Of a DNA stretch of 55,844 nt, positions 21,857 to 55,844 are shown in pieces (position 1 is the first letter of the stretch; each line of letters opens with the position of its first letter). The notes beneath the pieces are model-generated. The model searched no databases. It saw nothing but the letters and a program-made list of their open reading frames with translations, and was not told where the DNA came from. This stretch comes from Phycisphaerae bacterium (GTDB lineage: Bacteria; Planctomycetota; Phycisphaerae; Phycisphaerales; SM1A02), in assembly GCA_002709295.1 (NCBI GenBank), contig PAQL01000032.1, positions 1-55,844 on the forward strand, written 5' to 3'. The position numbers and the translations under genes are program-made.

Positions 21857-21939
21857 GTTCGTGAGGCTAGCAGGTCGAAGAGGGCAGGTGACTGGTATCG
21901 TCCCGGATAGGCCCCGGCAATGAATCGAAAGGGATCAGA

Positions 21940-22575: not shown

Positions 22576-22581
22576 GTCCGT

Positions 22582-24393
<1,812 letters not shown>

Positions 24394-25974: not shown

Positions 25975-26044
25975 GTCGGCTTGGTCCTTCGAGGAAACAT
26001 CGGCCCTGAGGCCTCGGCTTCTTCGACAAGCCCTGGAATGGCAC

Positions 26045-27325
26045 TCAGTATTCGGCTTCTGCCGATTTCGTCTCGGAATCCGCGTCGAGCCAGTTGGGAT
26101 CGAAGGCGGCGAGGGTGGCGGTGAACCAGAGGAGGCCGAGGACCTGGCCCTGGGCATGCCACTGGTCGAAGAGAGCGGTGACCATCCAGACCGCAAGGCT
26201 TCCCATGGCGAGGGTGCCGATCGGATGCCGCGAAGAAGTCCGATAAGCAGTGCGGCCGATGGTCCCCAGCAACCAGCCCAACAGCATGACCCCGACGATC
26301 CCGCCCTCCAGCAGGGTCTGGAAGTAGACCGAGTGGGGCTGATTGAAGATCGCGAATTTCTTCAACTGCGGGCTCTGCCGAGTCTCGTCCTGGAGCTGGA
26401 GATCACCGGCGAGGGCCTCCTGCGTGCCACCGATGCCGAAGCCGAGGATCGGTCTGGTCTCCCATTGTCGGACGCATGACCGCCACCAGGCGATCCGGAT
26501 GTCCTCCACCTTGCCTTCGGTGACGGCGTCCATCGCGGTGCTCATGCTGCGACGCACCTCGCGGATCGTCTCGTTCTGAGAAACGAGGATGGTGCCACCC
26601 GCGACCAGTGTGATCGTGGAGATGATCACGACGCTGCGCCGGGTCAGGGCTCGACGGATCGCGAGCAGCACGATCACGATGCCCGTGCCGAGGAGGATCG
26701 CCAGAACGCCTCCCCGGGATTCACTCAGCAGGCAGGCGGCGAGGGTGGGGATGAGGCCGAGCAGCCACCACGGCCGCGTGACGATCCGGCCGAGATACGC
26801 GGCGATCAGGCCCACCGAGACGGCTGCGTACCAGACGGCGTTGCGACGAGGATGGCTGTCGAAGCCCGCGAATCCCCAGCCATCCGCCCGAAAACCGTCG
26901 AGGATCACGACGCTCGCATGGAAGGTGCTCTGCACCAGAGTCCCGACGAGCACGCTCAGCAGCAACAGCCTCCAGCGGTTCATCAGAGGCCACAACAGGG
27001 GAGGCAGCGCCAGCCAGGTCTGGGCCCAGACCTGATGCCAGCCGGTTCGCAGGTCGGGCGACCAGAGCAGGCTGAGCAGCAGGTATCCCACCCAGACCAG
27101 GGCCGGGATCATGACCACCCTCGGCCCGGTGGGCAGATGGCTTCGCCAGCAGACGGTTCGAACGAGACCCCAGATCACGAGGCCGATCATCAGGACGCCG
27201 GTGATCTGCCCGTTCAGGGGGAGGGTCGCCAGGGTGCCGCAGGCCAGCCAGAGATGGATCCGATCACCGAATCGGTCCTTCGCGGCGAGTTCGACGAGGG
27301 ATCCTGGGCCGGAGAACGAAGCCAT
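26045..27325 (-). CDS. O-antigen ligase / polymerase family (Wzy/WaaL) membrane protein
   Basis: The 426-residue protein has about 11 transmembrane segments and a large periplasmic loop. The loop contains WWRSCVRQWETRPILGFGIGG and the segment NQPHSVYFQTLLEGGIVG, which is the usual conserved His region of the Wzy_C/O-antigen ligase fold. Such proteins join or polymerise lipid-linked glycans on the outer face of the inner membrane. The ATG at 27325 is chosen because upstream Met codons overlap asnB by more than 20 bp; no strong Shine-Dalgarno is present at any candidate. It follows asnB by 10 bp and precedes the CBS-aminotransferase by 70 bp, all in one orientation. Ligase and polymerase functions cannot be separated by sequence alone. 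Confidence 0.82.
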   Translation of the reverse strand: MASFSGPGSLVELAAKDRFGDRIHLWLACGTLATLPLNGQITGVLMIGLVIWGLVRTVCWRSHLPTGPRVVMIPALVWVGYLLLSLLWSPDLRTGWHQVWAQTWLALPPLLWPLMNRWRLLLLSVLVGTLVQSTFHASVVILDGFRADGWGFAGFDSHPRRNAVWYAAVSVGLIAAYLGRIVTRPWWLLGLIPTLAACLLSESRGGVLAILLGTGIVIVLLAIRRALTRRSVVIISTITLVAGGTILVSQNETIREVRRSMSTAMDAVTEGKVEDIRIAWWRSCVRQWETRPILGFGIGGTQEALAGDLQLQDETRQSPQLKKFAIFNQPHSVYFQTLLEGGIVGVMLLGWLLGTIGRTAYRTSSRHPIGTLAMGSLAVWMVTALFDQWHAQGQVLGLLWFTATLAAFDPNWLDADSETKSAEAEY

Positions 27326-30548: not shown

Positions 30549-32420
30549 TCAGGAGGAGGCCGGCTTGCGGTCGAGCACCGTCACCTGGCCTCGATATCCG
30601 GTCACGGTTTCCTGGAGGGTCTGCAGGACGGTCTCCTCGTCCCGGCGATCGACCGCTGCCTCGAGACGTTGAAGTACGATCGACAATTCGTTCCACGGAA
30701 GGAAGACCTCCGCGGAGCGGAGGATCTTCGGATGCTCGGTCTCCTCCAGGTCGCCGTCGATCAGAAGCTCTTCATACAGCTTCTCGCCGGGGCGGAGTCC
30801 TGTGAGCTTGATCTCGATGTCGCCTTGCGGATTGGCCTTGCTCCTGACGGAGCGTCCTGACAGTTCGATCATGCGTGCGGCAAGATCGATGATCCTGACC
30901 GACTCCCCCATGTCGAGCACGAACACGTCGCCGCCTTCGGCCAGCGAGGATGCTTGAATCACGAGGTTGGCGGCCTCATGAACGGTCATGAAGAATCGAG
31001 TGACTTCGGGATGAGTGACCGTGACAGGGCCGCCTGCCTTGATCTGTTCGGAGAACATGGGCACGGCCGAGCCCGAGGATCCGAGCACGTTTCCGAATCG
31101 AACCATGCAGAACCGGGTGGCCTGATTCCGGTCATGGATCGCCTGCAGGACGAGTTCGGCAAGCCTCTTGCTCGCCCCCATGACGCTGGTCGGCCGGACC
31201 GCCTTGTCCGTCGAGATGAGGACGAAGTCCCTGACCCCGGCATGAACGGCGGCTTCGGCGGTGCGTGCGGTGCCGAGGACGTTGTTGGCGACCCCGATGA
31301 CCGCATTGGACTCGACGATGGGCACATGCTTGTACGCCGCGGCGTGGTAGACGGTCTCGACTCCATGCCGCGTCATCGTCTGTCGCATCTGGAGAGCGTC
31401 TCGCACGTCGCCGAGGATCGGCACGATCGCCACCCCGTTCGACCGGCACTTCTCGAGTTCCGCGGTGATGCGGTAGAGGTTGTATTCGCTGTTGTCGACT
31501 AGAATCAGGCGGGCTGGAGCGAGATCCACGATCTGTCGGCAGAGCTCGCTCCCGATCGATCCCCCTGCACCGGTCACCAGCACGACCCTGCCCAGGATCT
31601 TCTCTCTGAGAAGGGATTCGTCAGGCGCCACGGATTCCCGCCCCAGCAGATCCTCGATGTTGATCGGTCTCAGGTCGGAGAAGCTGGCGACGCCGGAATC
31701 CAGTTCCGCCATGTCCGGAACCGTCAGGATCTGGATCTGGTGGCGGCTGAGGGACTCGATGACCTCGCGTCGTCTCGCCTTGCTCGCCGAGGGCAGCGCC
31801 AGCATGATCGTGTTGATCTCGTATCGCCGCAGGAGTTCGGGGATCATGTCCGGAGGATGAACGGCGACTCCGCGAACGTCACGATTGCTCATCCGTCGAT
31901 CGTCGTCGATGAAGCACTCGACTCGGACGGCACCGTCCTGCCCGAGCATCGAGAGGAGGCCGGCGCCGGCCTCACCCGCTCCGTATATCAACACCCGCCG
32001 CTTGGGAAGCTGTGATGTCTCGAAGATCCCTCGCCGCTGGATGAGCGTCTTTCCTATGAGCCTGACTCCCACGGTCCCGATGATCGAAGCCATCCAGAAG
32101 GGGAGGAAGGTCACCCTTGAGACGGCGGATTCGTCCCCCCGCAGGAAGCTGAGAGCAAGCAGGATCAGGGTGGTCAGCGTGACCCCGGCGACCCCGCGTT
32201 GAATGACGGTGGGCCCCACGTACCGGATGACTTCCCGGTAGAAGCGAAGCGGAAGCAGGCAGAGGACGCCGACGATCGGAGCCGCGATCAGGCACCATCG
32301 GGCCTCGGGCGGAGGGGTGAAGCTTCCATACCGCACGATGACCGCCACCCAGAATGCTCCAGCGAAGACCGCGGCATCTATTGCTGTGATGGCGATGAAG
32401 TTGAATCGTCTTGACGGCAT
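30549..32420 (-). CDS. Membrane-anchored nucleotide-sugar 4,6-dehydratase (PglF/WbpM/CapD family)
   Basis: The 623-residue protein has four N-terminal transmembrane segments (about 8-125), a CoA-binding-like domain (RRVLIYGAGEAG at 141-152), and a C-terminal short-chain dehydrogenase domain with the NAD motif TGAGGSIG (283-290). The catalytic residues are in STDKAVRPTSVMGASKR: T404, D405, K406, with M414 and K418 in the place of the usual YxxxK. This matches the long PglF/FlaA1-type inverting or retaining dehydratases, which lack the Tyr. The product is a UDP-4-keto-6-deoxy sugar, the expected substrate for either of the two DegT aminotransferases in the locus. It is 69 bp downstream of the wbpD-like gene. 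Confidence 0.93.
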   Translation of the reverse strand: MPSRRFNFIAITAIDAAVFAGAFWVAVIVRYGSFTPPPEARWCLIAAPIVGVLCLLPLRFYREVIRYVGPTVIQRGVAGVTLTTLILLALSFLRGDESAVSRVTFLPFWMASIIGTVGVRLIGKTLIQRRGIFETSQLPKRRVLIYGAGEAGAGLLSMLGQDGAVRVECFIDDDRRMSNRDVRGVAVHPPDMIPELLRRYEINTIMLALPSASKARRREVIESLSRHQIQILTVPDMAELDSGVASFSDLRPINIEDLLGRESVAPDESLLREKILGRVVLVTGAGGSIGSELCRQIVDLAPARLILVDNSEYNLYRITAELEKCRSNGVAIVPILGDVRDALQMRQTMTRHGVETVYHAAAYKHVPIVESNAVIGVANNVLGTARTAEAAVHAGVRDFVLISTDKAVRPTSVMGASKRLAELVLQAIHDRNQATRFCMVRFGNVLGSSGSAVPMFSEQIKAGGPVTVTHPEVTRFFMTVHEAANLVIQASSLAEGGDVFVLDMGESVRIIDLAARMIELSGRSVRSKANPQGDIEIKLTGLRPGEKLYEELLIDGDLEETEHPKILRSAEVFLPWNELSIVLQRLEAAVDRRDEETVLQTLQETVTGYRGQVTVLDRKPASS

Positions 32421-32489: not shown

Positions 32490-33074
32490 TCAGCAGATCC
32501 GCCCGGCGACCAGACGGTACGAGCGGCCGGTCCCCGGGCATTCCGCCTGGCCATCGCCCTCGACCGGAAGATCCAGGCGTTCCCCCGCTTCGCTCATCCA
32601 CCCGATCTGTCTGGCCGGCACGCCGACCATGAGGGCATGGGGAGGAACGGAGCGATTCACCGTCGCGCCCGCCCCGATGAAGGCGTGCTCACCGATCTCC
32701 ACTCCGCAGACGATGGTGCAGTTCGCGCCAAGGGTCGCACCCTTTCTGACGACCGTGTCCCGGTAGTCATCCTTGCGGGAGACCGCGGACCGCGGGTTGT
32801 AGACGTTGGTGAAGACCATGCTCGGGCCGCAGAACACATCGTCCTCGAGGGTCACGTTGTCGTAGACCGAGACGTTGTTCTGGATCTTCACGTTGTTGCC
32901 GATCGAGACCCGGTTCCCGACATAGACGTTCTGGCCCAGCGAACAGCCCGTGCCGATCCTCGCGCCGCCGCAGACATGGACGAAATGCCAGATCCTGGTT
33001 CCGGATCCGATGGTCGCACCATCGTCGATGATGGCGGATTCGTGGATGAAGACTTCTGGCTCGGAGCCGCTCAT
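32490..33074 (-). CDS. wbpD: UDP-amino-sugar N-acetyltransferase, WbpD/WlbB-like left-handed beta-helix
   Basis: The 194-residue protein has hexapeptide repeats throughout (for example [32 protein letters not shown]). The segments [19 protein letters not shown] and [23 protein letters not shown], and the ending [19 protein letters not shown], are close to WbpD/WlbB. Those enzymes acetylate the 3-amino group of UDP-2-acetamido-3-amino-2,3-dideoxy-glucuronate. The ATG at 33074 is preferred because GAGG lies 8 nt before it. A TTG at 33098 would give 8 more residues and overlap the wlbA-like stop. It is directly downstream of the wlbA-like gene, as in known 2,3-diamino-sugar pathways. Confidence 0.88.
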
Positions 33075-33094
33075 GCTGGCGTCCTCGAACTCGA

Positions 33095-34159
33095 TCAATA
33101 GACAAGGGGCAGGCTGACCGCCTGGCCATCACGTGCAGAGAGATACGCGGCGATGAGGATCTCGAGGCTCTTGAGGCCCTCCCGGCCGTCGGTCTCGGGC
33201 TCGGACCTTCCGCGCAGGACTTCGATGACGTTGCGGTAGTAGCGGGGGTGTCCGTAGCCGTAGACGGAGGTCGTCTCGTAGTTGGCGTTCCGGACGTCCG
33301 CGTCATAGTCGCGATCGTCCTCGAACTCCCAGGTCTGGATCTCGTTCACCGCGACGCCGCCGATACGGACCGTCCCCTTCTCGCCCAGGATCGTGAGGGA
33401 ACCCTCGAGGTTCTTCGGGTAGGTCAGCATGGTCACCGCGACAGATCCGAGAGCGCCGCTGCGCCACCTGACGTTCATGACGCCCGTGTCCTCGACCTCG
33501 ATGTTCCTTGCAAGCGTCGCGGTCATCGCATGGACCCGGTCGATCGGGCCGATCAGCCAGTCGAGAAGATCGATGTAGTGGCTTGCCTGATTCATGAACG
33601 CGCCGCCGTCGAGTTCCCAGGTGCCGCGCCACGCGTCGGTGTCGTAGTACTCCTGGGGCCGGGTCCAGAACACGTTCACGTTGGCCATGTGGATCCGACC
33701 GAATCGCTGCTCCTCGATCGCTCTTCGGAGAAGTTGAAGAGTCGCATTGAAGCGGTTCTGCTTCACCACGAACAATCGAACTCCGGCCTCGTCACAGGCA
33801 TCCACCATGCGAAGCCCGTCCTGCCACCGGGTGGCCATCGGCTTCTCGGTCAGGACATGGGCGTCGGATCGGGCGATCTCGATCGTCTGCCGGGCGTGGA
33901 TTCCGCTCGGAGAGCAGACGGCCACGAGATCCGGACGGGCCGATCCGAGCATCTCGTCGAGCCGGCCGAATCGGGGTGTGTCGTTCGGGATGAAATCCTG
34001 GTCCAGCCGAGAAGGTTCGGAGTCACAGGCTCCAACGAGTTCAAGGTCCTCGGAGAGCTCGGCGATCGCCCGGAAATGGTTCCTCGAGATCCGTCCGCAA
34101 CCGACCACCCCGATGCGAACGGGGCGGTCGATGATGACCTTGTGGTTGCCTGCGATCAC
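33095..34159 (-). CDS. wlbA: Gfo/Idh/MocA oxidoreductase, WlbA/WbpB-like
   Basis: The 354-residue protein has the N-terminal Rossmann motif [10 protein letters not shown] (from about 19), and the family motif TEKPMA (about 103-108), where the Lys is catalytic. [16 protein letters not shown] (about 190-205) and the stretch [20 protein letters not shown] are characteristic of WlbA/WbpB, which oxidise C3 of UDP-N-acetylglucosaminuronate with NAD. The next enzyme in that route, a 3-aminotransferase, is not obvious here (see findings), but the acetyltransferase that completes it follows within 20 bp. A 117-bp gap separates the gene from the aminotransferase upstream. Confidence 0.88.
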
Positions 34160-34276: not shown

Positions 34277-35479
34277 TCAGACGGTGGATGTGCGACATTC
34301 GGACAACGTCGCCGTGATGGCGGTGGTGACCGCGTCGAACTCCTCGTTCGTCATCGCCGGGAACAGCGGCAGCGAGACACACCCCTCGAACCAGGCATCG
34401 GCACCGGGGTAGCCATGGGGATCGAGAATCGCCGTTCGCATCCAGTGTGACATGCGGTGAAGAGGCCGATAATGCACGCTGGTGCCGATCCCGCGCTCGG
34501 CCAGTCCCTCGATGAAGGTGTTTCGATCCACTCCGGTCTCGGAGTCCGTGTGGACGACGAAAAGGTGCCACGCATCCCGATCCGGATGGGGAAGGGCGGG
34601 GGGGAGTCGGAGGCCTTCCAACCCTGACAGTCTTTCGCGATATCTCGAGACGAGATCTTTTCTGGCCTCGTGGAATTCGTGGTTCCGCTCGAGTTGAGCG
34701 AGGCCGATCGCCGCGGCCAGATCGGTCAGGTTGTACTTGAATCCGGCGGCCACCACGTCGTATTCCCACCCGGCACCGACTCGATGATGCCGGTCCCATG
34801 CATTGCGGTCGATCCCGTGCAGGCGCATCCGACGCATGCGTTCGGCCGCCGCGTCGTCGTCGGTGGTGACCATGCCTCCCTCGCCGGTGGTCATGGTCTT
34901 GTTGGCGTAGAAGCTGAAGCAACACGCCGTCGAGCCGATCGGGGAGCCCACGGCATGCTGTTCGTCATAGGTCGCCGGGAAGGCGTGTGCGGCATCCTCG
35001 ATCACCGCGACGCCACGGGACTCGCACAGATCGAGAATGCCGTCGCCCCCGGTCGTTCGCATGAGGCATGCCCTTCCGCCGAAATGGACGGGAAGCACGG
35101 CGCTGGTGGAGGGAAAGCGATCCAGGGCGTCGGCGAGGATCGCGGGCGTGAGCATCGCGGTCTCCGGGTCGACGTCGACGAGTCGCACCTTTCCCCCGAG
35201 GTATTCGACGATTTCGGCGGTCGCGGTGAAGGTCACACTGGGAACGATCACCTCGGAGCCCGGTCCGATGCCGGCCGCTTCGCAGCCGAGATGCAGCGCC
35301 GCGGTGCAGGAGTTCACCGCGATCGCATGCGGTGCACCGACGGCGTCTGCGAATCGACGTTCGAATTCCTGGACCTTGCCGCCGCTCGTGAGCCAGCCGC
35401 TCTCGAGGACCTCTCGGACGTAGTCGAGCTCGTTGCCGGTGGCGTCGATGCGGAAGAATGGGACGTTCATTCCCGGCAT
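34277..35479 (-). CDS. DegT/DnrJ/EryC1/StrS aminotransferase, ArnB/PseC-like
   Basis: This 400-residue PLP enzyme transfers an amino group from glutamate to a keto-sugar nucleotide. The PLP lysine is K194 in FYANKTMTTGEGG. The stretches EDAAHAF (161-167) and RLHGIDRNAWDR followed by FKYNLTDLAAAIGLAQLE resemble ArnB and PseC, which aminate C4 of 4-keto sugars. They do not resemble WbpE, which aminates C3. The start is MPGMNVPFF at 35479, although the second Met at 35470 is also usual for the family. It overlaps the end of the upstream sugar-transferase gene by 13 bp, so translation is probably coupled. The substrate is inferred from its likeness to 4-keto enzymes and the nearby dehydratase. 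Confidence 0.9.
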   Translation of the reverse strand: MPGMNVPFFRIDATGNELDYVREVLESGWLTSGGKVQEFERRFADAVGAPHAIAVNSCTAALHLGCEAAGIGPGSEVIVPSVTFTATAEIVEYLGGKVRLVDVDPETAMLTPAILADALDRFPSTSAVLPVHFGGRACLMRTTGGDGILDLCESRGVAVIEDAAHAFPATYDEQHAVGSPIGSTACCFSFYANKTMTTGEGGMVTTDDDAAAERMRRMRLHGIDRNAWDRHHRVGAGWEYDVVAAGFKYNLTDLAAAIGLAQLERNHEFHEARKDLVSRYRERLSGLEGLRLPPALPHPDRDAWHLFVVHTDSETGVDRNTFIEGLAERGIGTSVHYRPLHRMSHWMRTAILDPHGYPGADAWFEGCVSLPLFPAMTNEEFDAVTTAITATLSECRTSTV

Positions 35480-36105
35480 TCTCCCCGAACGCCGCCTTCG
35501 GGTCCAGCATCTCTTCCCCCGAGGACCGTGGTGAGGGTTCGGGCCAGGATCGCGAGATCGCCGAGAAATGACCGTTCGCGGACATACGCCTCCGAGAGAT
35601 CGAGCTTTCGGGGCAGGATCACGTCCCGGTAGCAGGCTTCGGGATCATCGGCAGAAGCGAGCATCGACTCCTCGTCGCGGAACTCGATCGAGGCCGGATC
35701 CGTGATTCCGGGTCGGACGCTCAGGACGATCTTCCATCGTTCGGGATGTGCGTCCGTCCATTCCGGGACCTCCGGGCGGGGCCCAACCAGGCTCATGTCG
35801 CCTCTCAGCACGTTCCACAGCTGGGGCAGTTCGTCCAGTTTGGTCTTTCGAAGAATGCGACCGATCCCGGTGACACGGGTCGTCTGTCCGGGGGTGAAGT
35901 TCGAGGAATGGGTCGACGGACTCACCGTCATGGAGCGAAACTTGAGAATCGTGAAGCGTCGGCCGTGGATTCCCATTCGGATCTGGCGGAACAGCGGCCC
36001 GCCGTTGCTCGTGACGGCGACGCTCAGGGCGATGCAAAGGATGAGGGGGGACAGGATCGCGATCGCGGCGGCGGATACGAGGATATCCAAGCAACGCTTC
36101 GCCAT
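35467..36105 (-). CDS. Initiating phosphoglycosyl transferase, PglC/WcaJ C-terminal type
   Basis: The 212-residue monotopic membrane enzyme transfers phospho-sugar from a UDP-sugar to undecaprenyl phosphate, the first committed step of glycan assembly. The N-terminal KRCLDILVSAAAIAILSPLILCIALS forms the re-entrant helix, and ILKFRSM (53-59) follows. The catalytic Asp-Glu dyad is D91-E92 in KLDELPQLWNVLRG, followed by MSLVGPRPEVPEW. The short form without the extra N-terminal helices matches PglC, which prefers bacillosamine-like sugars. It is the first gene of the leftward polysaccharide operon, 58 bp from the divergent glycosyltransferase, and overlaps the next gene by 13 bp. Confidence 0.94.
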   Translation of the reverse strand: MAKRCLDILVSAAAIAILSPLILCIALSVAVTSNGGPLFRQIRMGIHGRRFTILKFRSMTVSPSTHSSNFTPGQTTRVTGIGRILRKTKLDELPQLWNVLRGDMSLVGPRPEVPEWTDAHPERWKIVLSVRPGITDPASIEFRDEESMLASADDPEACYRDVILPRKLDLSEAYVRERSFLGDLAILARTLTTVLGGRDAGPEGGVRGECRE

Positions 36106-37637: not shown

Positions 37638-38897
37638 TCAGGCCGTGGCATCGACCCGGCGGTGTCGGCTCGATCCAGAGTCAGGACGGGCTGCGGCGTA
37701 GAGCACGAATCCAAGCAGGAGGAGGTAGACCCCGAGTTCGGTGATCGCGAGCGTGGAGAGGATCATGCCCACGTCTCCCTGTGGCCCGACGGTCAGCACG
37801 GCCGTCGCAGTGGCGACAAACGCAGTCAGTCGCCAGGTCATTCCAAGGCGATTGTGCCGAGTGGCCCCCAGGGTGGTGCTCAAGGGCGCGACGGCGAAGC
37901 GGGCGGCGATGGCAGGTGCGAGTATCGCTGCAAATCGTCCGGCCTCACGCCAGTCCTCCCCGAGCACGAAGGCGAACAGCGCCGGGCCCCAGATCGCGGC
38001 CACCACTGCCCCGGGGATCGCGATCAGCCAGAGGACGCCGGACGTCCGCAGCACGTGCCGCAAGGCCGAACCTCCGTCTTGCGACAGTCTGGATACGACT
38101 CGAAGATTCACCTGGCCGATGGCGACCATGGCCAGCGCCGCGGGAGCGGCGGTCACGCGAACCATCATGCCGAACTGGCCGAGTTCGGCATCACTGCACC
38201 AGCGCTCGATGGCAAGCACGGGAAGCGCCAGGGTGAGACCGCTGACCAGTCCGCTGCTCGCATTGAAGGTCGGAAATTCGCGATAGCGGCGAAGGGTCGC
38301 CCTGGCGGAGCGGAAGGTGATGGGCACGATCCCACGGGGTCGCAATCCCCAGCGCAGAAGCATTGCGAGTCCGACCATCTGGCCGACGAGGCTTCCTGCT
38401 ATCAGCCCTCCCGTCCCCGCGCCCAGCCATCCGGCGAGCAGCATCATGCTGATCGTCGCCGCGGCAATCACGATCTTGATGTGTCCCAGTCGGGCGAACT
38501 GATCACTCCTGTTCAGGCCGTATTGAAGGATCAGCACATTGCCGGCGAGGAACAGGTAGAGAGGCTCGTAAATGGCGAACCGGCCGCCTGAATCGATGGG
38601 GGACAAGGTCCATATGAGTAGCAGCACGGAAATCAGCAGACAGATCTGAACCGCGAAACCCATGAGTATCCTCGCGGTCCTCTCGGACCGGGGAAGGACC
38701 ATCGCAACCTCGAACTTTCCGCCTATGGCGGGGAGCAGCGCATTGGGCAGGACCAGGAAGGCAGTCAGCATCCCGATCTGTACATCATCGAACAGGCGGG
38801 ACAGAACCGGGGTCGCGGCTACCAGAATGATCTGGGCGAAACCGGTCCCGACCAAGACCACCGCGACGGATTTCCAGAATCGTGTTGGGATCACCAT
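37638..38897 (-). CDS. Wzx-like polysaccharide flippase (second)
   Basis: The 419-residue membrane protein has about 12 helices. The pattern GTGFAQIILVAATPVLSRLFDDVQIGML at the start and the central YREFPTFNASSGLVSGLTLALPVLAIE are typical of the Wzx/lipopolysaccharide-flippase family. It probably moves undecaprenyl-linked repeat units to the periplasm. Its N-terminus and sequence are clearly different from the flippase at 29290-30510. Downstream are 280 bp without a recognised gene, up to the convergent glycosyltransferase. It is 33 bp downstream of the deacetylase gene in the same orientation, which suggests one transcript. Confidence 0.88.
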   Translation of the reverse strand: MVIPTRFWKSVAVVLVGTGFAQIILVAATPVLSRLFDDVQIGMLTAFLVLPNALLPAIGGKFEVAMVLPRSERTARILMGFAVQICLLISVLLLIWTLSPIDSGGRFAIYEPLYLFLAGNVLILQYGLNRSDQFARLGHIKIVIAAATISMMLLAGWLGAGTGGLIAGSLVGQMVGLAMLLRWGLRPRGIVPITFRSARATLRRYREFPTFNASSGLVSGLTLALPVLAIERWCSDAELGQFGMMVRVTAAPAALAMVAIGQVNLRVVSRLSQDGGSALRHVLRTSGVLWLIAIPGAVVAAIWGPALFAFVLGEDWREAGRFAAILAPAIAARFAVAPLSTTLGATRHNRLGMTWRLTAFVATATAVLTVGPQGDVGMILSTLAITELGVYLLLLGFVLYAAARPDSGSSRHRRVDATA

Positions 38898-38930: not shown

Positions 38931-40406
38931 TCAATCGACCGGGTCGAGGGAAGGGCTCCTGGATGCCCGCGATGATCCACTATCACCCGGATTTCTCCAA
39001 AGACCTGCCCGGAAGAGATCTTCGCCGCGTCGGGGGATGAAGGACGTGTTGTGCCAGAGGATATTGAAATTGCCGCCGTAATGGTGGCTCGTCTTCGCCA
39101 TGGCGCGTGCGATGCCGAGGTCTCGGATCCGATCGCTCTTCGCGTACTGCGCGCTCAGAAGAGTGCGATCCATGAGAACGAGCGGGCGCTGCATGCAGGT
39201 CAGGCCCCGTCGCCCCACGAGATCGAACATCGGGAAGTCTCGGGCGGTGCCTGCTCTGAACCCGGTTTTCTGGGCGTAGCCGAGCGTGGAGTCGTGATCG
39301 ACCCCCGAGGCCTCGCAGAGTGACGGCGTGATCGTGCTCGACCATCGAAGGTAGTGCTGGCGGCTGCCCAGTTCATCCTGCTCGACTCCGAGATCCGCCA
39401 GGGTCTCGCGAAAATGCGTCACCGAATCCGCGTAGGCCTCCGGGAAACGGAAGGTGTTGTACCCGGGGTGGACACCGATTTCATGACCTGCCTCGTGGAT
39501 CCGACGGATGAGACGTCCCGTGGCCGGCTCCTCCGGTCGATTGTCCCCGTCCCGGATCGGATCCGTCGTCCTCGGGATGAAGTGGAACGTGGCGCGAAGA
39601 CCACGTGAACCCGCCTCTTCGAGCAGACGTTCGATCCCCGTCCAGTACGGATTGGCGAATGATCCGTGTCGACGGACGCGCAGATGGTCGAGCACGGTCG
39701 CGGACATGCGTCCGTCGTTCGAGCGGCCGATGAGCTGCCCGGCGAGTCGTCTTGCCAGTCCCTTCAGCGACATGCAGGCAGGGTCGTACAGGTGATCGAC
39801 ATCGCAGGACAACCGGGTCCGCCGGGACCTCGGAGGAGCGGGTACGTCCGGCCAGAGTGCGTGGATCGCGTTCCAGAGGACTTCGACGTACTCGTCCGCG
39901 ATCGGGCGGACGAGCAGATCCTCGTCTCCCAGCACCGATGCGGTGGGTGGGAACCGGTCGTGCTCGTCACGATCGGGAAGGACGCCTTCCTCGTACCGAG
40001 AGAGGAGGAAGAAGATCGTTCCCAGGAGATCGAAGTCGAATCGGATTCGCTCCGACCCGAAGCGTTCCGCCGTCGGTTCACCGAAGAACACCGGTGTGTC
40101 AGCCTCCAGGAGCCGCTCGGAAAGACCGATCGAGGCGGGACTCCAGTTCGACCTTGGCGGAATGGGAAGGGTCGAGGGATCGAGCCAGGCGGCGTCTGCC
40201 CGTTCGAAGAAGGTCAGGGGCGTCTGGATGCTTCTCGCGTTTCGGGAGATGGTCAATGTTGGAGCGTCGGTCCACTCCAGATCGAAGTCGAGCCCGAGGA
40301 ATCGTCCAAGCACGACGTCGACGATCCAACGGAGCTCCGCCCGGCATGTCCGTGGCGCGGTGACTTGGAATCGATTGTCTCTGTGCGTGGGGCCCGCCAT
40401 CTGCAT
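38931..40406 (-). CDS. Polysaccharide deacetylase family protein with an N-terminal extra domain
   Basis: The 491-residue protein has a C-terminal NodB-like polysaccharide deacetylase fold. RLSCDVDHLYDP (about 197-208) presumably carries the catalytic Asp-Asp of motif 1, and HEIGVHPGYNTF (about 306-317) is a motif-2-like His pair (HxxxH spacing: H306 to H311). The N-terminal 190 residues resemble the extra domain (DUF7033-like) seen in some exopolysaccharide-associated deacetylases. The frame is open 87 codons further upstream, but that extension has poor composition, and the ATG at 40406 has GGA before it. It would remove N-acetyl groups, or act on another amide, in the locus's glycan. No signal peptide was seen, so a cytoplasmic substrate is possible. 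Confidence 0.8.
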   Translation of the reverse strand: MQMAGPTHRDNRFQVTAPRTCRAELRWIVDVVLGRFLGLDFDLEWTDAPTLTISRNARSIQTPLTFFERADAAWLDPSTLPIPPRSNWSPASIGLSERLLEADTPVFFGEPTAERFGSERIRFDFDLLGTIFFLLSRYEEGVLPDRDEHDRFPPTASVLGDEDLLVRPIADEYVEVLWNAIHALWPDVPAPPRSRRTRLSCDVDHLYDPACMSLKGLARRLAGQLIGRSNDGRMSATVLDHLRVRRHGSFANPYWTGIERLLEEAGSRGLRATFHFIPRTTDPIRDGDNRPEEPATGRLIRRIHEAGHEIGVHPGYNTFRFPEAYADSVTHFRETLADLGVEQDELGSRQHYLRWSSTITPSLCEASGVDHDSTLGYAQKTGFRAGTARDFPMFDLVGRRGLTCMQRPLVLMDRTLLSAQYAKSDRIRDLGIARAMAKTSHHYGGNFNILWHNTSFIPRRGEDLFRAGLWRNPGDSGSSRASRSPSLDPVD

Positions 40407-40654
40407 CAGGTTCCAGGTGGGTTCCGGCTGTGCCGTGATCCGGGACGGGATCGTATCGCGGCTCCGATCCCGGAGGCTTGCGACCCCGGACCGAGAGGCG
40501 CTTCCATCGCCGGTCGGGGTCCGGGACGAGAAGGTCGCCATCCAGGGCCTTTCGCTATTCTTCGAGGCTGTTGCATCGGTCGGTGAGGGCATTCGACGGC
40601 CCCAGACACGAAACGGGAGGTTCACGGCGATCGATTCGTCGAGAGAGATCCGGC

Positions 40655-41245
40655 ATGGAATTTTCAAGAGACATCAAGTTCGGCTTCAAGGGTGGACGCG
40701 ATTACATCCACGGTCCCGACATGTACGCCGCCGTTCGCGATCGGCTGTTCGACAAGCCTCCCGAGAGAATCATAAATCTCACCATGCATCGTCTTCTTCG
40801 GGGCGACGCACGTGTCGTCGAGCTCGCTCCCGGTCATGAAGACGTCGTGGCTGAGGTCATGGTGGACATGGGTGGGGAAGAGCACCGCCTGGGATTTCAG
40901 CCGGCGGGTGAGGCGAGTATTGCGGTGAGAGCCTATGCGGAGGATGAGATCGCGAACCGAGGCGAACTGGTCTCTGGCGGTGGCCGACTCGATGTGCCGA
41001 CCGGATTCGATTCGATCGAAGAGGCCGTCGCCCTCATCAAGAGCTGGAGCAACAGGTTTCAGCCGGTGTCCGGCCGGTGGGTGGTCGCGAGAATCGATGC
41101 CATCGGCGGTTCTTCGCCGCTACCGCGCACCCGTGATGGCGATCTCGAAATCAGACACGCCGGCGGAATCGCGAAGAAACTCAATCGATTCGAGGTCACG
41201 TGTGACGGTGCCGAGGCGATGGTCTTCTTCGGAGCCCGCGGGTGA
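40655..41245 (+). CDS. Protein of unknown function coupled to a KAS III gene
   Basis: This is a 196-residue soluble protein with no signal peptide or membrane segment, and I recognise no domain. It starts MEFSRDIKFGFKGGRDYIHGPD and has blocks such as NLTMHRLLRGDARVVEL and RFEVTCDGAEAMVFFG. The ATG at 40655 is preceded by GAGAG; the frame is open upstream, but that extension is Arg/Ser-rich with no homologous look. Its stop overlaps the start of the next gene (GTGA), so its translation is coupled to that of a ketoacyl synthase III. It leads a rightward unit with KAS III, ACP and a GNAT protein. A role in making or passing on the acyl chain is an inference from context. Confidence 0.8.
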   Translation: MEFSRDIKFGFKGGRDYIHGPDMYAAVRDRLFDKPPERIINLTMHRLLRGDARVVELAPGHEDVVAEVMVDMGGEEHRLGFQPAGEASIAVRAYAEDEIANRGELVSGGGRLDVPTGFDSIEEAVALIKSWSNRFQPVSGRWVVARIDAIGGSSPLPRTRDGDLEIRHAGGIAKKLNRFEVTCDGAEAMVFFGARG

Positions 41246-42177
41246 GCATCGGAATCATCGACATCGCCTCCCACGTGCCGGACGGCCGTCGCAACGTCGA
41301 GGCCATGGCGGAATCGTTCTCCATGCCGGAGGATTTCCGGGTCGAAAAGCTGGGTACGGATCATCTGCCGGTCGCCGCGGAGGAGGAGGACGCGTGCAGT
41401 CTTGCCGTACCAGCGGTGGATGCCCTGCTGAAGCGGAACCCCGGCCTCGAAGATCGGATCGGGATGCTGGTCGTGGTGACTCAGAATCCGGTCGGCCACG
41501 GTCTGCCACACACCGCGGCGCTTCTGCATGCGGCCACCGGACTGGGGAGGGACGTCGCGGCGTTCGATCTCTCGCTCGGGTGTTCTGGATACGTGCATGG
41601 CCTCGAAGTGGTCAATCGCTTTCTCGAGGGCAGGCCGTCGGACAGGCGACATGGGATCCTGGTCACTTCGGATCCGTATTCGAAGGTCGTCGACCCGACG
41701 GATCGGGACACGGCGATGCTCTTCGGTGATGCAGCGACCGCCACGTTGATCGGGCCGGATCCGATCTTCGAGATGCCCACCGCCGACTTCATGACGGATG
41801 GCACCAAATCCGACGCGATCGCGGTCGACGATGGTGTTCTGTCCATGAAGGGTCGAAAGGTCTTCAACTTCGTCATGTCCAACGTTCCTGCTCAGATCGA
41901 GCGGACGCTGGGCGAAGCAGGACTCGCGGTCGCGGACATGGACCGCTTCCTCTTCCACCAGGGCAGCAGATACATCGTCGAGACACTCGCGAACCGGATC
42001 GGGGCAGATCTCGCGCGGACGCCGGTGCGAATCGGGGAGACCGGCAACACCGTCTCTTCGAGCATTCCGCTGTTGCTCGAGCACGAGCTTGTTGATGAAT
42101 CGGGCAGTAGACTCCTGATCGCCGGATTCGGCGTCGGACTCTCTTCCGGCGTCGGTGTTCTGACCAGGCCTCAGTAG
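41242..42177 (+). CDS. 3-oxoacyl-ACP synthase III-like enzyme
   Basis: The 311-residue thiolase-fold enzyme has the full FabH catalytic triad: C114 in LSLGCSGYVHG, H239 in LFHQGSRY, N269 in GETGNTVSSSIP. It should condense an acyl-CoA or acyl-ACP starter with malonyl-ACP, or catalyse a related acyl transfer. A housekeeping FabH is possible, but the placement inside a polysaccharide locus with its own ACP and an acyltransferase gene suggests a specialised role in making a short acyl group for a sugar. The GTG start overlaps the previous stop (GTGA). It ends 15 bp before the ACP gene. Confidence 0.9.
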   Translation: MSIGIIDIASHVPDGRRNVEAMAESFSMPEDFRVEKLGTDHLPVAAEEEDACSLAVPAVDALLKRNPGLEDRIGMLVVVTQNPVGHGLPHTAALLHAATGLGRDVAAFDLSLGCSGYVHGLEVVNRFLEGRPSDRRHGILVTSDPYSKVVDPTDRDTAMLFGDAATATLIGPDPIFEMPTADFMTDGTKSDAIAVDDGVLSMKGRKVFNFVMSNVPAQIERTLGEAGLAVADMDRFLFHQGSRYIVETLANRIGADLARTPVRIGETGNTVSSSIPLLLEHELVDESGSRLLIAGFGVGLSSGVGVLTRPQ

Positions 42178-42192
42178 CAAGGGACCACTCTG

Positions 42193-42438
42193 ATGAGCGT
42201 TCGATTCGACAGTGATGCCGTGAGGGAGATCATCATCGCCGCCAAACCGGGTTTTCAAGTTGGTGAGATCGCCGACGGAGACGACCTTCGAGAGGCGGGA
42301 ATCGATTCACTCGACATGATGACGATCATCCTCGATTGCTCCGAGAAGGCCGACTTCGAGGTCCCCGACGAGGACATCGATCATCTTGCGACGATCAAGG
42401 GGATCGTGGACTACTTCAACGAGAAGACAGGGGCGTAG
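42193..42438 (+). CDS. Acyl carrier protein
   Basis: The 81-residue acidic protein has the phosphopantetheine attachment site S39 in GIDSLDMM. A good Shine-Dalgarno (AAGGGA) precedes the ATG. Length and charge match ACPs of fatty-acid or polyketide systems. It sits between the KAS III and GNAT genes, so it probably carries the acyl chain made by the former and used by the latter. It is a dedicated ACP, not the housekeeping one, judged by location alone. Confidence 0.93.
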   Translation: MSVRFDSDAVREIIIAAKPGFQVGEIADGDDLREAGIDSLDMMTIILDCSEKADFEVPDEDIDHLATIKGIVDYFNEKTGA

Positions 42439-43505
42439 TCGCCATCGCGTTCCAGTCTCGCGAGTACCGGCCCGGGGACGAAACGGCGATCAACGATCTC
42501 TATCATGCCGTGACGGGAAGATCGCGTTCCGTCGAGGATTGGAAATGGCAGTGGGTCGACAATCCCGCCGGGCGAAGCGAGATGTGGCTGATCGAGGAGA
42601 CCCTCGACGACGGTTCGGCAAGGCTGATCGGTCACCATGGGGTCATGCCGTTTCGTGCGACGATCGATGGCAATGACTGTCTTGTCGGGAAGACGGAGAA
42701 CACGATGGTCCATCCGGATCATCGATCGCGGATTCTCTATCCCCGGTTCGAGCGGCGATTCCTGGCGGCGTACGAACCTCGCTTTGCGATGCTCTTCAGC
42801 ACCACCGGGCCGGCCGCGGCGATCAGGCTCCGCAAGGCGATGGGATACGAATACCGTGATCCGATGTGGATCGATCTGATGCGCCGCGGATTTGGTTCGG
42901 TGATCGATCTGCTTCGGGCCCGTCGTGCGAGAGAACGAAGTCGCGGGTCGAAGGGGCATGTCGGCACACCGCTGGAGACGGGCCGTTTTCGGAATGCATC
43001 CGTTGTTCCTGTGGACGATCAGGGATTTCTCTCCAAGTGGTCCGTAGGTCTCTCCGCTTCGGATGCGTCCGCGGGAGATCTTCGACTCGACCGAAGCCCG
43101 GAGGTTCTCGTCTGGCGCTACGGGAACCATCCATCGGGTGTCTACAGGGCGATTTGCGGTGCCGGTTTTCTGGCCGTGGTGCACGTGCGGCACGAGCGAA
43201 TCCTCTGTGTCAACGAGATCGCCTCGACCGACGGAGATCCGACCCGGGCCTGGGAAGGCATCGGAAGACTGGCCTCCGTCCTCGGGTTCCGCGTGCTGCA
43301 GATCGTGGGGTCCGGCCATGGCGTGGATCACATCGGGGGGCTTGGTCGTGGAGGCTGGAGCCGTTTGAGAAGGACACCGTGCGGGGATCCCCACGATTCG
43401 ATCGGCATGCCCTGTCTCGTCACGGCCCATGGGGCCGGGCTCGGCATCGATTTCGGTCGCTCCGATCTGGGCCCTCTCGTCTTCGAAGGGCCCGGTCGCA
43501 ACTGA
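42336..43505 (+). CDS. GNAT-family N-acyltransferase, start unresolved
   Basis: The GNAT domain begins around FQSREYRPGDE (42447 on), contains TMVHPDHRSR (an acyl-CoA-binding loop similar to RxxGxG/A) and continues to 43505, giving about 353 residues from the domain start. It would acylate an amino sugar, perhaps from acyl-ACP. The coordinates given here use a TTG at 42336, which is the only canonical start codon before the domain, but it lies inside the ACP gene by 103 bp. Between the ACP stop and the domain there is no ATG, GTG or TTG in frame; an ATC at 42444, 10 nt after AGGGG, would be the natural place. The actual start is therefore unknown (see findings). Confidence 0.75.
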   Translation: MLREGRLRGPRRGHRSSCDDQGDRGLLQREDRGVVAIAFQSREYRPGDETAINDLYHAVTGRSRSVEDWKWQWVDNPAGRSEMWLIEETLDDGSARLIGHHGVMPFRATIDGNDCLVGKTENTMVHPDHRSRILYPRFERRFLAAYEPRFAMLFSTTGPAAAIRLRKAMGYEYRDPMWIDLMRRGFGSVIDLLRARRARERSRGSKGHVGTPLETGRFRNASVVPVDDQGFLSKWSVGLSASDASAGDLRLDRSPEVLVWRYGNHPSGVYRAICGAGFLAVVHVRHERILCVNEIASTDGDPTRAWEGIGRLASVLGFRVLQIVGSGHGVDHIGGLGRGGWSRLRRTPCGDPHDSIGMPCLVTAHGAGLGIDFGRSDLGPLVFEGPGRN

Positions 43506-43779
43506 ACGTTCGAGGTTGGTTGATGTCGGTCGGCCTGACTTTCTCGATGCCGAGCAGGTTCGATCACGAACCGCGCGGCGGCACCGGCCCGACGACCTGC
43601 AGGACTCCGAAGGTCTGACGTTAGAGGTCGTTTCGAGTAGTTTGAGGACACTGGTCCCGTCGCCTTCAGCGCCGCGGCCGTTCGAGCATCAGCCATCCAC
43701 CGAGTCTCATCGATGACAGGCTCGCCCGGAGCGTCCCTTGCCGCGGCTTCAATCGTTTCGGGAACCGAGATCCGGATTC

Positions 43780-45207
43780 ATGTCACAAAGTGGCGTTCTT
43801 CAATGGGTGCGTCGGAAATCCTCCGAGGGCGGCCTCGATCGTTCGAGGGCCGCGCTCGCCACGTGTGCTGCACTGTTCTTTCTCTACGTCCCCACGAATC
43901 TTCTCAGTTCCATCGACCATTCCGGGATCCTCAAGCGTGCCGTCTGGTGTGCATTGCTGGCTGCGGCGATTGTGATGACCGTCTTCGACCGTCGATTCCA
44001 GCGATTTCTGCATCGATCGAAGGTGGGTCTCCTCCTCGGTGCATCGGTCCTGTACTTCGGTGTCCACGCACTTCTCATGCCACCCGCATTCGGTCCGATG
44101 CCTCCGATTGCGTTGATCGTGCTGCTTCCGGTCATGACGGTCCTCGGGATCGGGTCGTCGTTTTCGAAGGGGGCCGTCGCGTGGGTGCTTTTCGCGATGT
44201 CGGGGAGCATCGTCGCCATCGGTCTGTTCACGATGTCGACAACCGGATTGCTGACCGATCCCGGCTCCGGCTTCATCCTGTACTTCCCCGGATTCTGGCC
44301 GAGTGATGTCCGTTGGTATCAGACAGTCGCCCTCTTCTGCGGGATGTATTCATTGCTGGCGGTCTTCTTCGTCATGCCGCGGATGACCTCGCGCTCGCTG
44401 ATGGCCCTGTTCGTCCTCTCCGCAGGATTCGCGGCGATGTTCATCGGGGAGCTTGGTGCACGAACCGCCTTGATTTCCACGACCCTCGCATTCGTGGCAC
44501 TGGCCGTCCTGAAGTGCCTGCGTGGAAGGCGCGGCGGTTCGTCGGGATCGGACGTCGGTGTGTCGAATGCAATCTGGTGTCTTGCATCTCTCACGGTCAT
44601 TTCCGCACTGTGGGTCCCTTCCGTTCTCGGCTTTTCGATGGCTTCGGGCGAGGGCACTCTGATTCAGCGGAGATCCAGCTTGACCTACGAGGGTTATGCA
44701 TCGCTGTTGGAGAGCAAGGATCCCGAGCAGGATTCGGATCGCATCCTGAGCCAGGCACCGCGTCTCGCGATCCTGACGGCTGCGACGGATCACTTCCGAT
44801 CGAAGGAATGGAACCTGATGTTCGGGAGCGGCGCGGAGTCGTTCCAGGCTGCGGGAATCGGTCGTGGTTGGCATCCGCATTGCATCCCGCTAGAGTTGCT
44901 TCTGGAGTACGGAATCGTCGGTCTGTGCATGGTGCTTTCGCTCCTTGCCGCCCTTGCACGGGGGGTGGTGCGACAGATTCATTCACCCGGCCGGGATGAT
45001 CTGCGCAACGGCGATGCGGTGCTGGGGGTCGTCGTCATGTTCTCGGTGGCGAGCCTCTTCACCGGCTCCGTGGGAACCTCGATGGCGACGCTGGTGTTTC
45101 TATACGGACTGGTCGGATCGTCCGATGTCGACCCGACCTCCTCCGAGCACGACGAGGAAGCGGCTCGCGGTGCCGGAGAAGAGGAGAGCTCGGCATGCGT
45201 CGCTTGA
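43780..45207 (+). CDS. O-antigen polymerase-like (Wzy) membrane protein
   Basis: The 475-residue protein has 10-12 transmembrane segments and a long periplasmic loop (about 300-365). Near its end, HPHCIPLELLLEYGIVGLCMVL (about 380-401) is the conserved His region of the Wzy/O-antigen ligase fold. It would polymerise or ligate repeat units in the periplasm. A second member of this group is at 26045-27325, so one may be polymerase and the other ligase, or the locus may serve two glycans. The ATG at 43780 is preferred; a TTG at 43738 would add 14 residues. Its end overlaps the next glycosyltransferase by 13 bp. Confidence 0.82.
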   Translation: MSQSGVLQWVRRKSSEGGLDRSRAALATCAALFFLYVPTNLLSSIDHSGILKRAVWCALLAAAIVMTVFDRRFQRFLHRSKVGLLLGASVLYFGVHALLMPPAFGPMPPIALIVLLPVMTVLGIGSSFSKGAVAWVLFAMSGSIVAIGLFTMSTTGLLTDPGSGFILYFPGFWPSDVRWYQTVALFCGMYSLLAVFFVMPRMTSRSLMALFVLSAGFAAMFIGELGARTALISTTLAFVALAVLKCLRGRRGGSSGSDVGVSNAIWCLASLTVISALWVPSVLGFSMASGEGTLIQRRSSLTYEGYASLLESKDPEQDSDRILSQAPRLAILTAATDHFRSKEWNLMFGSGAESFQAAGIGRGWHPHCIPLELLLEYGIVGLCMVLSLLAALARGVVRQIHSPGRDDLRNGDAVLGVVVMFSVASLFTGSVGTSMATLVFLYGLVGSSDVDPTSSEHDEEAARGAGEEESSACVA

Positions 45208-46430
45208 AGATCGTGACGCTCTGGTATCCACCCGAACAGGCGGCGTTCGGGGTGATGATGCAGGAACTGGCTGCACATCTGAAGGACCGTGGATGGGACG
45301 TGGAGATCGTCACGTCGCTTCCCAGCCATCCCCGTGGAATCGTCTTCGAGGGTTGGAGTGGACGAATCGGACGCTCCGAGGAGGACGGCCTCCCAGTCCG
45401 TCGGTTGCGAACCATGATCTCCTGCCGACGTGGCGCACTGTCCAGAGGGATCGCCCAGCTCTCCTTCAGCGTCACTGCGATGAGGGATGTCCTGTTCGGG
45501 CGTCGAGCGGAGGTGGTTGTCGCTCCTCTTCAGCCGCTCTTTCTCGGTCCGTTGCTGGGACTGGCCTGTCGAGTCCGTCGATCGTCGCTGGTCTGGCTCG
45601 TGCAGGACATCCACCCGGATGCGTTGGTGGACCTCGGACTGCTTCGAGAGGGCCTTCTGGTTCGGATGCTTCGTTGGTGCGAGCGAGTCGGGTATCGAAC
45701 CGGCGCCCGCATCATCTCCATATGCCCTGCGTTCGCGAGGCACGTGACCACCAGGCAGGGAGGCAGGACTGACGGGCGATCGGTCGTCATACGCAACTGG
45801 TGCCGTCCGAGCGTGCTTGCGGAGACCATGGAAAAATCCGCCTGTCGAGCGAAGCTGGATCTTCCTGCAGATGGCATCCTGCTCCTGTATGCGGGAACAC
45901 TGAGCTACTCGAGCAACGCATCATTGCTCATTGATGTCGCTCGGCGTCTTCGAGATTCAGCTCCAGAGATTCGAGTGGTCGTCGTGGGCGAAGGACCGCT
46001 CAGAGGGGATTTCGACCGGGAGGTCCGGTTGGGCGGCGCTTCCAACCTGATCATCCGGGACTTCGTCCCTGCGGACATGCTTTCCTGCCTTCTCGGTGCT
46101 GCCGACATCGCTGCCGTCACCATGGATCCGACCTCGGCGAGAAACTCGCTGCCCAGCAAGTCGATCAGTTACCTGGGAGCGGGGATACCCGTGGTGGCGG
46201 ACTGTCCGGAAGGTTCCCCTCTGCACGAGGAGCTGTCCGAGGCGGGGGCGGCCAGATTCGCCGCGCCGGCTGACCCCGATGCCTTCGCAGGATCCGTGGT
46301 CGAACTGGCGAAGTCTGAAGAGGACCGGCGTCGCCTTGGTGATTCGGGTCGCGACTTCGTGAAGCGTGAACTCGTGGCGGAAGTGGTCCTGCCGAAGTAC
46401 GCGGAGATTCTCGAGGGAATCGCACGATGA
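45195..46430 (+). CDS. Glycosyltransferase family 4 protein, WbuB-like (second)
   Basis: The 411-residue GT-B enzyme starts RRLKIVTLWYPPEQAAFGVMMQELAAHLKDRGWDVEIVT, typical of the WbuB group. It has VWLVQDIHPDALVDLG (about 133-148) in the N-terminal domain, and LLYAGTLSYSSNASLLI and PSKSISYLGAGIPVVADC in the donor-binding domain. A good Shine-Dalgarno (GAGGAGAG) lies before the ATG, which is inside the end of the upstream wzy-like gene, indicating coupled translation. Its stop overlaps the following GNAT start (ATGA). The sugar donor is unknown. Confidence 0.9.
   Translation: MRRLKIVTLWYPPEQAAFGVMMQELAAHLKDRGWDVEIVTSLPSHPRGIVFEGWSGRIGRSEEDGLPVRRLRTMISCRRGALSRGIAQLSFSVTAMRDVLFGRRAEVVVAPLQPLFLGPLLGLACRVRRSSLVWLVQDIHPDALVDLGLLREGLLVRMLRWCERVGYRTGARIISICPAFARHVTTRQGGRTDGRSVVIRNWCRPSVLAETMEKSACRAKLDLPADGILLLYAGTLSYSSNASLLIDVARRLRDSAPEIRVVVVGEGPLRGDFDREVRLGGASNLIIRDFVPADMLSCLLGAADIAAVTMDPTSARNSLPSKSISYLGAGIPVVADCPEGSPLHEELSEAGAARFAAPADPDAFAGSVVELAKSEEDRRRLGDSGRDFVKRELVAEVVLPKYAEILEGIAR

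Positions 46431-54914: not shown

Positions 54915-55844
<930 letters not shown>

Follow-up and report, generated by a model that had tools for sequence, protein, structure and literature searches.

A gene module encoding a predicted double hot-dog protein, a KAS III and an acyl carrier protein recurs in unrelated bacteria and may supply acyl groups to surface amino sugars

Why would a polysaccharide locus carry its own kit for making acyl chains? In the contig of a Phycisphaerae bacterium analysed here (PAQL01000032.1 of assembly GCA_002709295.1; its 55,844 nucleotides are hereafter called the window and belong to a genome of 3.68 Mb in 43 contigs), open reading frames (ORFs) read from the sequence reveal four consecutive rightward genes, which encode a protein of no recognised family that we call X, a β-ketoacyl-acyl carrier protein synthase III (KAS III), an acyl carrier protein (ACP) and a GNAT-type presumed N-acyltransferase. 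With a probability of roughly two in three, we read this module as a dedicated acyl-ACP supply for the N-acylation of a nucleotide-activated amino sugar.

The layout of the module agrees with what an original prediction, made from the DNA letters, had described: the ORFs, Pfam searches and an alignment gave the same order of four genes, a GTGA in which the GTG start of the KAS III gene overlaps the TGA stop of X by 4 bp, an intact Cys-His-Asn triad in the KAS III, a gap of 15 bp between the KAS III stop and the ACP gene, and a DSLD serine site in the ACP. Matches over the Pfam cut-offs were obtained for the KAS III (PF08541, 1e-17; PF08545, 5e-16), the ACP (PF00550, 8e-10) and the GNAT protein (PF13527, 6e-8), the latter having no match to any NCBIfam model, that of LpxD included. 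The start of the GNAT gene is anomalous, as no ATG, GTG or TTG lies close to the ACP stop codon (window 42336-42450) and the nearest in-frame start, a TTG at 42336, is found 34 codons upstream within the ACP gene; a rare start codon or a wrong base in the sequence would explain this.

The arrangement is not confined to the window. X was found in 14 loci in total, the window and 13 relatives from Planctomycetota, Gammaproteobacteria and one metagenome-assembled genome (MAG) labelled as a cyanobacterium, and in 12 of the 14 a KAS III of one subfamily lies directly 3' of X. All 12 adjacent pairs have the stop and start codons within -14 to +1 bp of each other, with a 4-bp overlap in nine, and since the pair recurs elsewhere with stop and start fused, the association is more than chance. 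Four of the loci were reached through the KAS III and have an adjacent KAS III by the manner of their discovery; in the nine genomes other than the window that were found with X alone, KAS III directly follows X in seven, an ACP is near in eight and an N-acyltransferase is present in nine. Over all loci that could be judged, an ACP is near X in 12 of 13 (none in L142; 2.4 kb downstream in G626; those of L140 and L141 recognised by eye from the motif, the others by tblastn or as ORFs), and an N-acyltransferase is found in 13 of 13 (the copy in L071 being cut by the contig end), the contig of L077 ending before either could show. This transferase is of one of four types: GNAT like that of the window (G402, G504, L047 and L071; 33-43% identical to the window protein in the first three, the L047 copy scoring below the PF13527 cut-off), LpxD-like (G626, G784, G1022 and G1019), NeuD/PglB/VioB-like (L040, G709 and G1150) or AAC(3)-like (G954), names that outside the window denote likenesses, all NCBIfam scores being under the curated cut-offs. 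X, KAS III and ACP are mostly retained when the transferase type changes, as expected of an acyl supply unit, and X thus appears to go with the supply of acyl-ACP and the transfer of N-acyl groups, not with one particular sugar.

The family formed by X, which is new and uncharacterised and recurs with acyl kits in unrelated bacteria, is rare. It was detected in 3 of 301 genomes of the window's order (the window, G402 and G504), in 4 of 181 genomes of its family, window included, which adds G626 (the window, G402 and G626 belong to the same family), in four (G644, G784, G954 and G709) of the 369 genomes searched in the class to which G644 belongs and in 3 of 149 genomes of a Pseudomonas genus group (G1150, G1022 and G1019). 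A single-sequence search of the phylum returned the window itself from 294 genomes, a search of the class only the window from 377 (a draw that may not have contained G402, G504 and G626) and another draw of 292 genomes just its own starting genome; single-sequence searches gave no viral or plasmid relative, and of 587 stretches matched in a scan of genome contigs with three X sequences none was confirmed. When the order was searched at E values up to 1, 117 of the 301 genomes matched and 114 were dropped as probable chance, G297 (E 6e-4 over 102 residues inside a 1017-residue frame) and G220 (E 0.0014) among them. From the 426 relatives that a separate KAS III scan yielded, the 80 best loci were retained and their flanks searched with an X profile; X was present in six (L037, L038, L040, L047, L071 and L077), the first two being G402 and G626 again and the other four belonging to Halopseudomonas oceani (L040), a member of the Thiotrichaceae (L047), Thiomargarita nelsonii (L071) and the MAG labelled cyanobacterium (L077). 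The rarity and scatter of X suggest that it has spread by horizontal transfer. In G954 the X gene (L125, 6348-7002), truncated at the N-terminal end and preceded by an unrelated ORF, is a decaying copy, with KAS III, ACP and transferase still in place. In G1022 (L141, 8315-8847) X and the ACP are separated by 300 bp that contain no KAS III, and a nearby aminotransferase gene is split by transposon-looking ORFs.

If the module is an acyl supply, its KAS III should be distinguishable from the enzyme of fatty acid synthesis. An alignment of four KAS IIIs (window, G402, G504 and G626) shows no variation at C114, H239 and N269, and by its sequence the window protein belongs to the KAS III superfamily. 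It scores 133 bits against a cut-off of 292 and 169 bits against a cut-off of 249 with the NCBIfam FabH models and is 26% identical to the one other KAS III of the genome, presumably FabH, which places it, as anticipated, apart from the housekeeping enzyme. Among the 80 relatives kept, 72 are from Pseudomonas (46-48% identity), and outside the window's family the nearest of the 80 are those of L039 and L077 (50%), L040 (48%) and Pseudomonas. The few Pseudomonas loci read by eye have the gene beside pseudaminic-acid or flagellin genes, which agrees with the likeness to Pseudomonas glycan islands proposed earlier. In L041, L067, L102 and L112 the KAS III precedes a flagellin-like ORF (by eye) and stands without X and without a nearby ACP match, and the same search found no ACP in six Pseudomonas or Paucimonas loci (these four, L044 and L109). 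Judging from such neighbours, mostly read by eye in some of the loci, the KAS III is probably of the glycan-island, VioS-like type, with G402 as an exception. A tree of 11 X-bearing rows, 17 of the 74 X-less loci and one presumed FabH on a very long branch cannot, with this single outgroup, show grouping, and it supports no claim made here. That the genes serve fatty-acid or lipid synthesis and stand in a glycan locus by accident is very improbable: KAS III and ACP are indeed families of type II fatty acid synthesis, and the module of G402 has no visible sugar genes nearby, but the genome holds the separate KAS III just described, no NCBIfam FabH or ACP cut-off is reached, and in the window, as in the majority of the other loci read, the module has sugar genes on its flanks.

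A comparable set of genes is known from Pseudomonas syringae, in which, according to the portion of the report available, the vio genes make N-(3-hydroxy-1-oxobutyl) viosamine, the assignment of vioS and acp resting on homology, and the N-3-hydroxybutyryl sugar is missing from a vioR mutant (PMC3927599). Like this flagellin viosamine island (vioS, acp, vioR, vioB), as far as that portion describes it, the window carries KAS III, ACP and N-acyltransferase genes beside amino-sugar genes; it differs in having X, a deacetylase and, in place of VioB, a GNAT protein, with no reductase found beside the module and no flagellar genes among those annotated. The logic of N-acylation by KAS III and ACP is already known, and the new part is X, which is joined by a deacetylase in one type of module. 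In the parts of the respective reports available, the Shewanella sfm genes include a reductase and no KAS III (PMC3765264), and Aeromonas flagellin islands carry an annotated acyl dehydratase and a GNAT gene (PMC7874193).

What kind of protein, then, is X? Neither Pfam nor NCBIfam gave a match at E 0.1, three X proteins had no Pfam match even at E 10, two one-member Pfam matches (E 0.17 and 0.25) were taken as chance, and profile searches of PDB and Pfam with 3 or 10 X sequences returned nothing useful; the description of X as a protein of no known family was upheld, and no unrelated known family emerged. A literature search limited to titles and abstract openings of a partial collection found no published description of it. 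The AlphaFold2 model, built from seven sequences, has a mean predicted local distance difference test score (pLDDT) of 92.4 and a predicted template modelling score (pTM) of 0.90, and its order of elements is that of two tandem hot-dogs, the second central helix spanning residues 120-135, which matches an earlier guess at a hot-dog fold. Polyketide synthase (PKS) dehydratase domains make up most of the nearest PDB matches and rank first by Foldseek (5hst, E 1.6e-6), and VIA-align gave Z 11.7 over 169 residues at 4.4 A with 4u3v, an enoyl-isomerase of a trans-acyltransferase PKS, Z 11.3 over 173 residues at 3.6 A with 5hst, and Z of about 10 with acyl-CoA thioesterases. Since PDB entries within 1 Z are tied, the fold call is that of a double hot-dog and nothing finer, and at this level the model confidently predicts X to be a double hot-dog protein.

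The alignment of 13 X sequences, from which the N-terminally incomplete copy of G954 was excluded, shows R15, G20, E96, K129, W142 and F192 to be invariant and K12 and Y17 nearly so (differing in two and in one sequence, respectively), while position 122, on helix 120-135, is acidic throughout (Glu in 11, Asp in 2). No His column is invariant, position 19 being His, Gln or Arg, and no Asn is invariant either. From a reading of the secondary structure, E122 may correspond to the dehydratase acid on the second hot-dog helix, and K12 may lie near the place of the dehydratase His. X shares with PKS dehydratase domains the predicted fold, but it is mostly 60-90 residues shorter, stand-alone, 4-13% identical and devoid of the invariant His; without this residue it is not an ordinary dehydratase, and its sequence does not support a classical His-Asp/Glu mechanism. 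Decarboxylases that act on ACP thioesters and have a hot-dog or double hot-dog fold have been described, in the accessible part of one report (PMC8666670), and X might in the fashion of MadB or LnmK decarboxylate malonyl-ACP to prime the KAS III; the known enzymes use a catalytic Asn, so that the sequences do not support a Mad/LnmK-type Asn decarboxylase and we consider such an activity hardly probable.

The missing His and the tight gene coupling would also be expected of a catalytically dead hot-dog whose only role is to stabilise, or to dock, its KAS III or ACP partner, and related KAS IIIs do occur without X. We regard this as somewhat unlikely, as six residues (R15, E96, K129 and W142 among them) are the same in all 13 sequences, the always acidic position 122 falls roughly at the dehydratase acid place in the secondary structure, and two loci have X without an adjacent KAS III. 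Transferases with a double hot-dog fold exist, namely AfsA and ScbA, and X itself could accordingly carry the acyl group from ACP to sugar, the GNAT and left-handed β-helix enzymes just acetylating; the retention of X while the other transferase changes type would fit, but an N-acyltransferase accompanies X in every locus judged, the X-less KAS III locus L039 also has acyltransferase-like ORFs (partly by eye), and none of 10 X proteins matches the AfsA Pfam family at E 10, which makes this quite unlikely. We favour the view that X acts on an ACP-bound acyl chain, and between a processing enzyme and a scaffold we choose neither.

Which sugar would receive the chain? Divergent from X lies a gene for a VimE-like polysaccharide deacetylase with conserved Asp/His positions, an addition to the earlier picture of the locus. 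Relatives (32-43% identity) stand beside the module in G402, G504 and L047, the last scoring 202 bits with the VimE model, and in G626 a PIG-L deacetylase immediately precedes X; module and deacetylase occur together in 5 of the 14 X loci, which suggests a step of deacetylation followed by re-acylation. Further along, the locus encodes proteins that match the PDB entries 3q2i/3q2k, which we take to be WlbA (listed there as dehydrogenase/oxidoreductase), and 3mqg/3mqh, presumably WlbB; in G504 the WlbB-like protein recurs at 78%, and a WlbA-like match there is weak. Given the WlbA- and WlbB-like genes and the VimE-like deacetylase, the acceptor may be a deacetylated 2,3-diamino uronate rather than, or besides, a 4-amino sugar. 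The original prediction had the chain attached to a 4-amino-4,6-dideoxy sugar made by a 4,6-dehydratase, which we take to be equivalent to PglF, and a C4 aminotransferase. The enzymes it named are present, both DegT aminotransferases being nearer to C4 enzymes, and four other X loci (L040, L126, L140 and L125) stand in clusters that read by eye as pseudaminic-acid synthesis, a 4-amino pathway; the acceptor it proposed fares less well, since the WlbA-, WlbB- and VimE-like proteins point to the uronate and a deacetylase would be superfluous for a 4-amino sugar. We hold that acceptor to be possible, short of probable. In another locus (L124, 5144-12686) X, KAS III and ACP are placed in a cluster that resembles one for dTDP-Fuc3N synthesis (RmlA/RmlB-, FdtA- and FdtB-like ORFs, by eye) and has an LpxD-like transferase, so that the acceptor there would be a 3-amino sugar.

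Two known systems share the proposed order of events. In Porphyromonas gingivalis, as described in the part of the report available, a diacetamido uronate is the product of WbpA, WbpB, WbpE and WbpD, and a homologue of asparagine synthase is responsible for the amide; the proposal there is that VimE liberates the amine at C2 and that VimA attaches Ser or Gly in place of the N-acetyl group (PMC7468200). Within the limits of that description, the window resembles this system in combining WlbA/WbpB-, WlbB/WbpD-, asparagine-synthase- and VimE-like genes in one locus, the asparagine-synthase-type protein (27339..29255) being possibly a WbpS-like uronamide former, and the deacetylate-then-reacylate logic is shared; in contrast, the acyl group of the window would come from KAS III and ACP and not from an amino acid added by VimA, and the VimE match stays under the curated cut-off. 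By analogy, this gene set with KAS III, ACP and GNAT taking the place of VimA would be the simplest reading of the window. The second system is that of lipid A synthesis, in which LpxC deacetylates a UDP-amino sugar and LpxD then N-acylates it, taking acyl-ACP. The module has the same logic of a deacetylase and ACP-dependent N-acylation, and four X loci carry LpxD-like transferases, although their matches all fall below the cut-off; unlike LpxC/LpxD, it has its own ACP and KAS III, a presumably short chain, no lipid A and, in the window, a GNAT.

From the gene order, the protein families, the predicted fold and the recurrence observed, we infer the following course as to the chain, the acceptor, the transfer and the activity of X. 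The KAS III, from its enzyme class, would start a short chain on the private ACP by condensing acetyl-CoA with malonyl-ACP to acetoacetyl-ACP, which a reductase from elsewhere may turn into 3-hydroxybutyryl-ACP, so that by analogy the chain would be a C4 oxo- or hydroxyacyl group; X, made in step with the KAS III, would work on or channel the ACP-bound chain; the VimE-like deacetylase may expose a free amine on a diacetamido sugar, and the GNAT would move the acyl group to it.

Several observations weigh against this course or parts of it. A classical ketoreductase was the best match of none of the 30 window proteins given to Pfam, so that any reduction needs an enzyme from elsewhere, while a scan for the short-chain dehydrogenase/reductase motif, which had no match in 18 sources and 74 other loci, lacked a positive control and carries no weight here. 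X stands without an adjacent KAS III in L141 and L142, in whose genomes a KAS III of the subfamily is present elsewhere, and conversely no X was found in the available flanks, some of them short, of the 72 Pseudomonas KAS III loci, nor in those of L039 or L109; X is hence not required in every such pathway. The AlphaFold2 model of the GNAT, from three sequences, is of low confidence (pLDDT 49.6). With regard to the uronate, the window deacetylase scores 125 bits with the VimE model, whose cut-off is 440; there is no clear WbpE in the window, WbpE ranking lower among the matches of 24457..26196 and being absent from the 12 matches listed for 34280..35479; WbpA is not in the locus, the candidates being two nucleoside diphosphate-sugar dehydrogenases over the cut-off elsewhere in the genome; and the stretches examined of G402 and L047 gave no WlbA or WlbB match. 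Finally, in G402 none of the window's sugar genes was matched in 32 kb (L034, L130), the neighbours of the module being, by eye, EF-Tu, SecE, NusG and ABC ATPase-like ORFs (L034, 1-20000) and its contig ending 1.4 kb past the GNAT gene. Deacetylase, X, KAS III, ACP and GNAT genes are there together without a visible glycan locus, which indicates that the five hold as a unit and at the same time weakens the claim of an always local glycan; on this account we rate our main reading slightly lower, and the lipid alternative slightly higher, than we otherwise would. To the earlier suggestion to see whether X always neighbours KAS III and ACP in glycan loci, the answer is that these partners are mostly there, that some copies of X belong to pseudaminic-acid or Fuc3N-like clusters and not to a polysaccharide locus, and that G402 shows no sugar locus at all around its copy.

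A wider proposal, which we offer tentatively, is that X founds a family of His-less double hot-dog enzymes that determine which short acyl chain, or which stereoisomer of it, a private ACP carries, and that X, KAS III and ACP form a mobile device replacing N-acetyl groups of surface sugars, in which one N-acyltransferase can be exchanged for another and which in one type includes a deacetylase. If true, unrelated bacteria would swap N-acetyl for other acyl groups on surface amino sugars by means of a mobile cassette. How phages, hosts and antibodies recognise a surface glycan can depend on unusual N-acyl groups, and where the acyl chain comes from is often unknown; X beside KAS III and ACP may serve as a sequence signature for predicting glycans with such groups, and the module points to deacetylation and ACP-dependent re-acylation outside lipid A. 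As an uncharacterised family with a confident predicted fold and few invariant residues, X is directly testable.

Table 1. Features of the module and of the surrounding glycan locus (positions in the window).
Feature	Position	Strand	Remarks
X	40655..41245	+	ATG start, 196 aa; double hot-dog (AlphaFold2 prediction); no Pfam/NCBIfam family
KAS III	41242..42177	+	GTG start; C114-H239-N269 intact; Pfam
Acyl carrier protein	42193..42438	+	PF00550; DSLD serine
GNAT-type presumed acyl-ACP:amino-sugar N-acyltransferase	frame 42438..43505	+	PF13527; start codon ambiguous
DUF7033/VimE-like polysaccharide deacetylase	38931..40490	-	PF23019 2e-23; divergent from X; exact start ambiguous
WlbA/WbpB-like 3-dehydrogenase (Gfo/Idh/MocA)	33098..34159	-	PDB 3q2i/3q2k, best E 2.6e-153
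WlbB/WbpD-like hexapeptide N-acetyltransferase	32493..33098	-	PDB 3mqg/3mqh, E 5e-92
DegT sugar aminotransferase, ArnB/PseC-like	34280..35479	-	family and PDB matches
PglF/WbpM-like UDP-GlcNAc 4,6-dehydratase	30552..32420	-	PDB 5bju (WlaL) 1.5e-85
Asparagine-synthase-type amidotransferase	27339..29255	-	TIGR01536 337 bits (over cut-off); TIGR03108 347 bits (below cut-off)
DegT aminotransferase, C4-type, PglE/LegC-like	24457..26196	-	PDB 1o61 7e-84; N-terminal CBS-domain match
Sugar-phosphate transferase to lipid carrier	35470..36105	-	PF02397
Flippase-like polysaccharide biosynthesis protein	37641..38897	-	PF13440
Wzy-like polymerase/ligase, weak	43738..45204	+	PF04932 27.8 bits, below cut-off 31.7
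WcaI-like glycosyltransferase	45195..46430	+	family match; NCBIfam score below cut-off

The remaining genes of the glycan locus are given in Table 1. Adjoining it are sulfate assimilation genes (3'-phosphoadenosine 5'-phosphosulfate reductase, adenosine 5'-phosphosulfate kinases and a GTPase) together with a CitMHS transporter (19017-24393), and a bacterial 16S rRNA gene (54915-55844) runs past the end of the window.

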